Below are positions 16,271 through 17,364 of a stretch of DNA of 64,000 bases, piece after piece. Under the pieces are notes generated by a model that was given only the letters and a program-made list of their open reading frames with translations, searched no databases and had not been told where the DNA came from. The stretch lies in the NCBI GenBank assembly GCA_902537055.1, contig CACAZW010000002.1, positions 1-64,000 on the forward strand, written 5' to 3'. Each line of letters opens with the position of its first letter. The first letter of the stretch is position 1. This stretch comes from an uncultured Pelagibacteraceae bacterium. Lineage in GTDB: Bacteria > Pseudomonadota > Alphaproteobacteria > Pelagibacterales > Pelagibacteraceae. The position numbers and the translations under genes were made by a program.

Positions 16271-16299
16271 TTGACATAACTATTCAAAAAAAATACAAA
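16271..16299 (+). promoter_or_regulatory. Predicted promoter of the 27-residue basic peptide gene
   Basis: A perfect TTGACA (16271-16276), 17-nt spacer, and TACAAA (16294-16299). It lies in a 184-nt gap after the acyl-CoA synthetase. The predicted start near 16306 leaves a leader of about 45 nt that contains a hairpin and a good ribosome-binding site. This is the best -35 match that I saw in the window. Confidence 0.6.
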
Positions 16300-16302
16300 A
16301 AG

Positions 16303-16334
16303 GTAATTAAACGAATCAAAAAGATTCGTAATTA
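16303..16334 (+). promoter_or_regulatory. 5'-leader stem-loop of the basic peptide gene
   Basis: Perfect 7-bp stem ACGAATC (16311-16317) and GATTCGT (16323-16329) around an AAAAA loop. It can be extended by TAATT (16304-16308) pairing with AATTA (16330-16334) across a two-base bulge. It sits between the predicted transcription start and the GGGAG ribosome-binding site at 16340-16344, so it could stabilise the mRNA or control translation. Confidence 0.55.
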
Positions 16335-16350
16335 AAAAAGGGAGCTAAAG

Positions 16351-16434
16351 ATGGCTAAAAGAAGAAAAAAAGCTGCTAAAAAGAAAACTAAGAAAAAAGC
16401 TAAGAAAAAAGCTAAGAAGAAAAGAAGAAAATAG
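16351..16434 (+). CDS. Small lysine/arginine-rich peptide (27 aa), histone-tail-like
   Basis: MAKRRKKAAKKKTKKKAKKK then AKKKRRK: 16 Lys and 4 Arg in 27 residues, built of KKKA/KKKT-like repeats. Despite the low complexity it has every sign of a real gene: consensus promoter, leader hairpin, AGGGAG ribosome-binding site 6 nt before the ATG, and a strong hairpin terminator 22 nt past the stop. The composition resembles histone H1 tails and bacterial nucleoid peptides, so nucleic-acid binding is likely, but no specific function is known to me. It faces the carD gene, whose product has a similar Lys-rich tail. Confidence 0.75.
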   Translation: MAKRRKKAAKKKTKKKAKKKAKKKRRK

Positions 16435-16456
16435 TTTAGTATTCTTTTTATTAAAT

Positions 16457-16496
16457 AACGCTTCTCATGGCGCTTGCGTGGGAAGCGTTTTTTTTT
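16457..16496 (+). terminator. Rho-independent terminator
   Basis: Stem AACGCTTC (16457-16464) with GAAGCGTT (16482-16489), GC-rich loop able to pair further, then a T8 run. It terminates the 27-residue peptide transcript. The carD stop codon (TAA, reverse) lies inside the T run, so carD transcripts end against or through this hairpin. Confidence 0.88.
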
Positions 16497-17364
16497 ATTT
16501 TGCTATTTCTTCTGAGACCTCTTCCCCAGTTACTTTATTCTCAATTTTTTGAACTTGCTTTTCAAGATTTCTTTTTAAAGCTTTATCAAGTTTTTTTTGA
16601 GTGTCTTCTTGGCTTATATTTAAAATAATTTGAAATTCGGTAAGAATTCTATCATAAGCTTTTTCAAAAAGTTGTCGTTCGCTATAAGATTGATCAACCA
16701 TTAAATCATCACCCTTATTTAAGTCTCTTACCACCTCTGCTAATTCATAGATCTTACCTGATGAAATCTTAGCTTCATATTCTTGTGCTCTTCTACTCCA
16801 CATACTTCTCTTAATTTTTGGTTTACTTTTCAATATACTGATACATTTGTTTACCTGATTAATTGTTGCCAAAGGTCTTAAATGTGATTGCTTATTAACT
16901 GGGACCATTCCATAAGCTTTATCTTTTTCAAATCTAAGTATGTAAGACTCTATATCAATGCCACCTATATTCATTTTTTTAAATTCTATAATTTGACCAA
17001 CACCATGTTTTGGATAAACAACATAATCCTTTATTTTATACTCTTTTTTTTCTGTATCTTGTTTTTTTACTTTTTTAATTTCTGGTTTTTGCTCGTTATT
17101 TTTTGGAATTCGAAGTAAGTTTGTATTTGTATCTGAATTTATTTTCTTATCTTGTATAGATTTTTTAACCTTAGTATTTGGCGTAATTATTTTTTTCTTT
17201 TTAATCACCTTCTTGGTTTTGATTATTTTTGTTGCCTTTGACTTAGGTGCTTTTATTTTTTTTGATTTCTTTTTTAAATGTTTTTTTTTCGGTGTTTTTT
17301 TTGTTTTAAATGTTTTCTTCAAAGTATTTATCAAACTTATTTTCTTCATCTTTATATTTCTCAT
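16495..17364 (-). CDS. carD: CarD/CdnL-family transcriptional regulator with lysine-rich N-terminal extension
   Basis: CarD/CdnL proteins bind the RNA polymerase beta subunit and stabilise open promoter complexes. The CarD domain starts near residue 109 ([20 protein letters not shown]) and continues with the C-terminal helical domain ([28 protein letters not shown]). The first ~108 residues are an added tail, rich in Lys with [19 protein letters not shown] stretches, absent from the usual 160-200-residue form. Start at 17364 overlaps the ferredoxin gene by 59 nt; ATG 17349 is an alternative. Order fdxA-carD is typical of alphaproteobacteria. Confidence 0.88.

Follow-up and report, generated by a model that had tools for sequence, protein, structure and literature searches.

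The rhtB RNA of SAR11 bacteria as a candidate trans antisense regulator of a short lysine-rich peptide gene beside carD

A gene for a 27-residue Lys/Arg peptide in a 64,000-nucleotide stretch of SAR11 DNA (hereafter the window) is, from its Shine-Dalgarno (SD) sequence to its start codon, perfectly complementary to the loop of the rhtB RNA (Rfam RF01814), a candidate small RNA with a separate locus; control of the gene is therefore likely to be translational and exerted in trans. By sequence, the two partners fit a trans antisense pair, the RNA being unlinked to the gene and carrying conserved, unpaired complementarity to the translation start. The reading that we favour, and consider reasonably probable, is that rhtB RNA acts as a trans antisense repressor, which would pair with the peptide mRNA and block its translation.

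The window belongs to a draft genome that is small (1.216 Mb in 39 contigs) and AT-rich. Sequence inspection of positions 16271-16497 revealed a full small transcription unit on the forward strand, and the self-contained gene described in an earlier note was confirmed in all its parts: promoter, 7-bp leader hairpin, SD, a 27-codon open reading frame (ORF) with 20 basic residues, and a strong terminator. The promoter (16271..16299, + strand) consists of TTGACA at 16271-16276, a 17-nt spacer and TACAAA at 16294-16299. To call it the best promoter in the window, as that note did, was an overstatement: the window contains 30 copies of TTGACA, 11 of which have a -10 match of at least 4/6 at a spacing of 15-19, and the 16271 site fails a stricter rule that requires T at the last -10 position. 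TTGACAT was invariant in 27/27 aligned relatives, with a -10 that was mostly TAAAAA; three of 30 loci were excluded from this alignment because the promoter or leader was cut off or the match was another Lys-rich gene. The leader hairpin (ACGAATC-AAAAA-GATTCGT; 16311..16329, +), near the predicted transcript start, has a perfect 7-bp stem (16311-16317/16323-16329), and is followed by the ribosome-binding site GGGAG (16340-16344, +) and the ORF MAKRRKKAAKKKTKKKAKKKAKKKRRK (16351..16434, +), which begins with ATG at 16351 and comprises 27 codons, the stop ending at 16434. The basic residues of the peptide are 16 K and 4 R. The intrinsic terminator (16457..16497, +) has a stem of 13 pairs (16457-16489) and then a T-run; a 5-kb scan gave three terminator-like sites, against 1.0 expected per shuffle, the 16457 site having the most pairs, and the terminator was retained with the full unit in 27 of the 30 loci. 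The 197-nt stretch 16300-16496 was more stably folded than 200/200 shuffles (z -3.36). The neighbouring carD gene (16495..17364, - strand; PF21095, 1.1e-19; PF02559, 1.8e-12) is convergent. Its N-terminal extension (17130-17364, -), ahead of the CarD domain, is itself very Lys-rich, as if both neighbours supplied polycationic tails.

Next, the coding status of the short ORF was examined. Homologues of the peptide gene were read at 96 loci, giving ORFs of 20-35 aa and 36 distinct peptides composed of K, R, A, T, P, S and M only, though A-rich DNA easily encodes Asn, Glu and Ile. Among 100 pairs of similar ORFs (same length, at most 12 differences; the sequences are related and the pairs hence not independent), codon differences were synonymous in 203 cases and non-synonymous in 124, where random changes would be expected to be synonymous in 19%. 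Indels among relatives were multiples of three, and only 0.23% of trials with random DNA of matched composition yielded 26 open codons in a row of which 20 or more encoded K/R. The +1 frame is also open in 96/96 loci, and openness alone was not counted as coding evidence. By these sequence comparisons the reading frame of the peptide is under selection, so the suggestion in the earlier note that the structure of the RNA might matter more than the peptide is not needed; the idea of a small RNA mistaken for an ORF was rejected on the same multiples-of-three indels and mostly synonymous differences. From its composition, the polycationic peptide is probably unstructured and would bind nucleic acid, either DNA or RNA. 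No Pfam or NCBIfam match was found for the 27-aa peptide, or for its longer homologues, at E up to 1, so that no curated profile, including those of the Histone H1/Hc1-like family, matched either; a protein-database search with an 85-aa homologue returned two short fragments only.

To examine the prevalence of the unit, a DNA search was run over 36 other genomes of the same genus, and detected it in 28 at 74-97% identity (two of the 28 cut by contig ends); one extra match, in genome G017, was a different Lys-rich gene. A covariance model of the leader matched 82 of 147 genomes sampled over the order, 72/76 within the genus and 10/71 outside it. Recurrence of the whole unit in 72 of 76 sampled genus genomes is far beyond chance, and the ORF is thus not absent from close relatives; nor did we encounter a relative in which the hairpin was kept and the reading frame lost. 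The leader-model and RF01814 searches of the 147 genomes used stricter filters, at which weak matches are lost, and the genus genomes lacking a leader match (4/76) or an rhtB match (5/76) are drafts. The carD gene was convergent with the peptide gene in 96/96 loci, each with a Lys-rich ORF of 20-35 aa beside it, and a gene for an AMP-binding ligase lay upstream in 91/96. An attenuator leader peptide was rejected as an explanation, as no regulated gene follows the terminator on the same strand, the next gene being the convergent carD at all 96 loci.

The association with carD extends beyond the genus. The carD locus was obtained from 13 of the 15 SAR11 genomes that lacked a leader-model match, and in 13/13 of these loci, from other SAR11 genera, a Lys-rich ORF lay opposite carD, at its end. 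These ORFs measured 31-50 aa in genera g5-g7 (counted from MAK) and 76-91 aa, with K/A/P repeats, in family f2, and the leaders of all 13 carried CGAATC. A class-wide carD-linked Lys-rich gene was rejected: of 57 other alphaproteobacterial genomes searched, 50 had carD, and the 30 loci fetched contained no such gene, bar one 18-codon chance ORF. The K/A/P-rich repeats of the 76-91 aa homologues in f2 recall, we assume, histone H1 tails and chlamydial Hc1-like basic proteins, from which the genus peptide differs in its length of 20-35 aa and in the lack of any Pfam or NCBIfam match for it or its longer homologues. Because other SAR11 genera have longer carD-linked Lys-rich ORFs, the genus peptide appears, by sequence comparison, to be a short form of a Lys-rich, H1-tail-like protein encoded beside carD, reduced to its basic core; dosage control of such a protein is therefore plausible. 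Separate, longer genes with KKAKK-type repeats were observed elsewhere in genus genomes (G021:C6:5250-5631, G033:C1:114581-114974, G036:C1:346413-346771 and others), so SAR11 has more than one Lys-repeat protein. A phage or mobile origin was rejected, since 42 viral contigs carried the 15-mer and in none of them did it lie in a peptide gene or an rhtB element. The earlier note's interpretation held in part, as to a dedicated, conserved gene whose peptide is selected; it had missed the rhtB antisense partner and the longer carD-linked relatives.

Alignment of the 27 leaders showed that TTGACAT, the CGAATC/GATTCG hairpin and AGGGAGCTAAAGATG are retained, the hairpin with one strong exception (locus L028). 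The exact hairpin pattern was found in 16/41 genomes, at a single site in each save one extra in G014, the reversed control being found in 5/41. Among genus members the stem varies so little that it shows hardly any covariation (its score was reached by 155/500 shuffles). In all other SAR11 genera examined, the CGAATC 5′ arm is constant and the 3′ arm varies yet still pairs, which favours an RNA structure. A purely DNA operator is disfavoured, in that sister genera pair through G-U or re-registered stems and lose the perfect palindrome, though the scant within-genus covariation softens this rejection. We take the order-wide invariant CGAATC to resemble a tRNA T-arm.

The partner RNA came to light through BLAST matches to the leader elsewhere in the genomes, which revealed a second site carrying GGGAGCTAAAGATGGCTAA. 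Rfam assigns this site in four relatives to the rhtB RNA, RF01814, at 78-83 bits, on the strand opposite the shared motif; the rhtB RNA therefore carries the reverse complement of the motif. In the genome of the window, the rhtB RNA (G000:C16:14775-14851) scored 77.1 bits, above the gathering cut-off of 55 bits, and two RF01814 matches below the cut-off (28.0 and 30.5 bits) corresponded to the antisense strand of the peptide gene. The rhtB RNA was found in 71/76 genus genomes and in 0/71 others, and leader and rhtB RNA were both present in 67/76 genus genomes. The two are unlinked: in G106, most likely HTCC1062, rhtB lies at 1297616-1297698 on the minus strand and the peptide gene at 410431, about 0.89 Mb apart. 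This rhtB position agrees with the intergenic region 1297623-1297755 for which PMC2704228 gives an rhtB element on the minus strand. A 3,163-base contig labelled as a Cytophagales metagenome-assembled genome (locus L262) has a typical SAR11 rhtB element, a label that is probably a binning error.

In the rhtB hairpin, of about 47 nt, a stem of 10 bp leads through an internal loop to a further 4 bp, which are capped by an apical loop of 13 nt, AUCUUUAGCUCCC. In a test on the 17 distinct hairpins out of 86, the outer stem covaried, with a score reached by 3/500 shuffles and 97.9% of cells paired; two stem pairs had changes on both sides, a count reached by 58/500 shuffles. The 13-nt loop was exact in 85/86 loci. 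TGNTAW stood immediately 5′ of the hairpin in 86/86 loci, and in 5 within a control window placed farther upstream. Some 30 nt ahead of the hairpin, toward the divergent DUF2805 gene that occupies the far side in 84/86 loci, a TTAATGCA-like block recurs (84 distinct loci) and could be a substitute for a -35 element or a regulator site. On the other side, a lysE-family gene lay directly downstream in 65/86 loci, and a run of at least five T directly after the stem was present in 29/86, in 22 of these just before lysE. The 21 loci without lysE (one at a contig edge) retain the loop. At locus L160 and the 64 further loci, the hairpin thus heads an exporter gene and its complement lies in a gene for a Lys/Arg-rich peptide, so a link between export of basic amino acids and the peptide is possible. 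The opposite strand of the hairpin reads SD-ATG-GCT, as in the peptide gene, and because of this resemblance to the start of the gene, the hairpin probably originated as a copy of it. The ORF on that strand is not retained, and in the genome of the window it is cut after three codons.

The loop sequence AUCUUUAGCUCCC is exactly antisense to the SD and start of the peptide gene, its 13 nt covering GGGAGCUAAAGAU of the mRNA, from SD to start codon. In the genome of the window the complementarity extends to 18 contiguous pairs with the segment GGGAGCTAAAGATGGCTA (16340..16357, +), at -35.3 kcal/mol. Starts of 63 ORFs in the window averaged -6.9 kcal/mol with the same loop (best -17.4), the best site elsewhere when the loop was slid along the whole window reached -25.2 kcal/mol, and 2000 shuffled loops gave an average of -11.7 and a best of -22.6 kcal/mol against the target. 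In the 72 genomes with both partners, pairing energies ranged from -26.1 to -36.9 kcal/mol and contiguous complementarity from 13 to 20 nt (14 nt in 40 genomes, 18 nt in 26, 13 nt in one). The SD-start 14-mer, GGGAGCTAAAGATG, was identical in 92/93 genus peptide genes, one of 94 having been left out because it was cut by a contig edge. At the start codons of other genes in these loci the commonest 14-mer accounted for 4/62 loci (ferredoxin), 10/65 (lysE) and 37/64 (DUF2805), counting only loci that aligned from residue 1 and had the start codon present. GGGAGCTAAAGATG was found in 60/61 genus genomes, mostly incomplete drafts, at two sites in 34, one in 26 and none in one, and never at more; outside the genus it was found in 0/40 genomes, and the reversed control in 0/101. 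In the genome_contigs collection the 18-mer occurred in at least 120 places, which among the matches listed were 82 rhtB elements, 38 peptide genes and nothing else; 79 of 80 host titles among the matches listed were Pelagibacteraceae, Pelagibacterales or Pelagibacter.

The fixed SD region goes with the presence of the RNA. Sister genus g8 has the peptide gene and no rhtB match, and its SD region, GGGAGA[A/T]AAGATG, differs from the sequence fixed in the genus; a partner RNA in g8 was sought by exact match and rejected, as the g8 SD 14-mer occurs once in each of 8/8 g8 genomes. The loop of the window's genome paired with the 93 genus targets at -28.1 kcal/mol or better (mean -32.1), whereas for 23 loci from beyond the genus the strongest pairing was -28.0 kcal/mol (mean -22.8); the two sets are separated only narrowly at the edge, so energy alone is no sharp divider. 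No compensatory changes between loop and target were found, both partners being nearly invariant. Single departures in G190 (target) and G182 (loop) were unmatched by the partner, and CCT as codon 2, in about 46% of genes, breaks the pairing just outside the 13-nt core and is uncompensated. The sole rhtB loop to deviate from the 13-mer belongs to G182 (loci L198 and L185), whose peptide, MAAKRKAAKKSKKKAKKRSR, also looks degraded. In the predicted fold of the mRNA, AAAGA is open and AGCU is almost fully paired in a weak local hairpin, which tempers the claim of accessibility.

The sequences themselves show that the gene is there, that its frame is selected, that the rhtB loop is complementary to it, and that the rhtB-bearing genus has a fixed SD-start sequence which g8 lacks; the mechanism beyond the match is what we infer. 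An extended -10 promoter of its own would give rise to the rhtB hairpin, a short structure at the 5′ end that would either stand alone or head a lysE-type mRNA and would expose AUCUUUAGCUCCC. The loop, with its U-turn-like UUUA, may first touch the exposed A-rich part between SD and AUG and then zip over the SD, which would exclude the 30S subunit; the resulting duplex may attract RNase III. Hfq (PF17209) was found in 0/31 and 0/10 genomes (38 distinct in all), control genomes being positive in 5/14, and ProQ (PF04352) in 0/10, with a positive E. coli control, so the two RNAs must pair without help or rely on some other factor, for which the polycationic peptide is a candidate. An extension of this idea, which we regard as quite improbable, is that the peptide is an RNA-annealing factor of SAR11 with its own mRNA as first client, peptide and rhtB RNA then making up an autoregulatory loop of two genes, where the chaperone would promote the very pairing that ends its own synthesis.

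The same complementarity could be read in the opposite direction, with the peptide mRNA as the trans regulator: its SD region would bind the hairpin that heads the lysE/rhtB-type exporter mRNA, altering exporter expression and linking a Lys/Arg-consuming ORF to an exporter. The lysE-family gene directly 3′ of the hairpin at 65/86 loci and the T-runs that in 22 of 29 cases stand just before lysE agree with such an arrangement; the loop is, however, kept at the 21/86 loci without lysE (one at a contig edge), and the complementary stretch is the SD and start codon of the peptide mRNA itself, which pairing would silence, so that we consider this direction unlikely. A little more unlikely still is a reading of the shared sequence as a relic, with an rhtB element that was copied from the gene start and now serves only as a terminator or leader hairpin with no pairing in trans. 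The SD-ATG-GCT on the opposite strand of the hairpin would be explained in this way, and Meyer et al. (PMC2704228), in their description of the element, considered a terminator and reported a U-run in about half of the examples. A terminator role, however, would not fix the 13-nt loop (85/86) or the 14-mer of the gene (92/93, versus 4/62 to 37/64 at other starts), the T-run of at least five is found in only 29/86 loci, and the opposite-strand ORF is not conserved, ending after three codons in the window's genome.

A further reading would make the pair a module like the type I toxin-antitoxin systems, with a toxic polycationic peptide and rhtB RNA as its trans-encoded antisense antitoxin. The likeness lies in a very short ORF, in a dedicated antisense match over its ribosome-binding site and in the YUNR-type UUUA of the rhtB loop, a motif described for such systems in the account of PMC6562991. 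In that account type I toxins are mostly hydrophobic and transmembrane, whereas 20 of the 27 residues here are basic; moreover, the RNA is unlinked, and the gene is a fixed chromosomal neighbour of carD that persists in genera where rhtB RNA was not found. We regard a toxin-antitoxin role as very unlikely, and return to repression of the peptide mRNA by rhtB RNA as the preferred reading.

According to Meyer et al. (2009; PMC2704228), the rhtB element is a hairpin with bulges that lies beside rhtB/lysE, upstream of rhtB, has a U-run in some examples and might be either an inverted repeat or a terminator; no target is named in that description. The partner RNA reported here is the same element, above the gathering score in 71/76 genus genomes and in the same place beside rhtB/lysE; the difference from the published description is that a specific trans target is now proposed for it from sequence complementarity. 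The nearest tested analogue found is NfeR1 of Sinorhizobium, an alpha-r14 sRNA and thus likewise an alphaproteobacterial trans sRNA with an anti-SD loop; as presented in PMC10746234, its ultraconserved anti-Shine-Dalgarno motif lies in an unpaired loop and blocks translation initiation. NfeR1 has three hairpins with CCUCCUCCC and several targets (PMC10746234), whereas the rhtB RNA is a single hairpin whose loop reaches over the start codon as well, and it has one exact full-length match per genome, in hosts in which no Hfq was found. The rhtB RNA would then be a single-target trans antisense RNA whose match is unusually complete, directed at a gene for a Lys-rich peptide in hosts without detected Hfq. 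In the open-access literature we found no paper on a target of rhtB RNA or on this peptide, and no trans-acting sRNA with a target for SAR11.

SAR11 cells are among the most abundant on Earth. They have few transcription regulators and are thought, in the account of PMC13198564, to lean on post-transcriptional control. For an RNA family whose 2009 description came with no target, the pair proposed here would supply a single specific one, in genomes in which the search for the usual RNA matchmakers came up empty. The analysis also draws attention to a gene of 20-35 codons under strong selection, of a size that length-limited gene callers easily overlook, and connects it with the Lys-rich gene found next to carD throughout SAR11, whose product is a candidate for organising the chromosome or RNA in these minimal cells.
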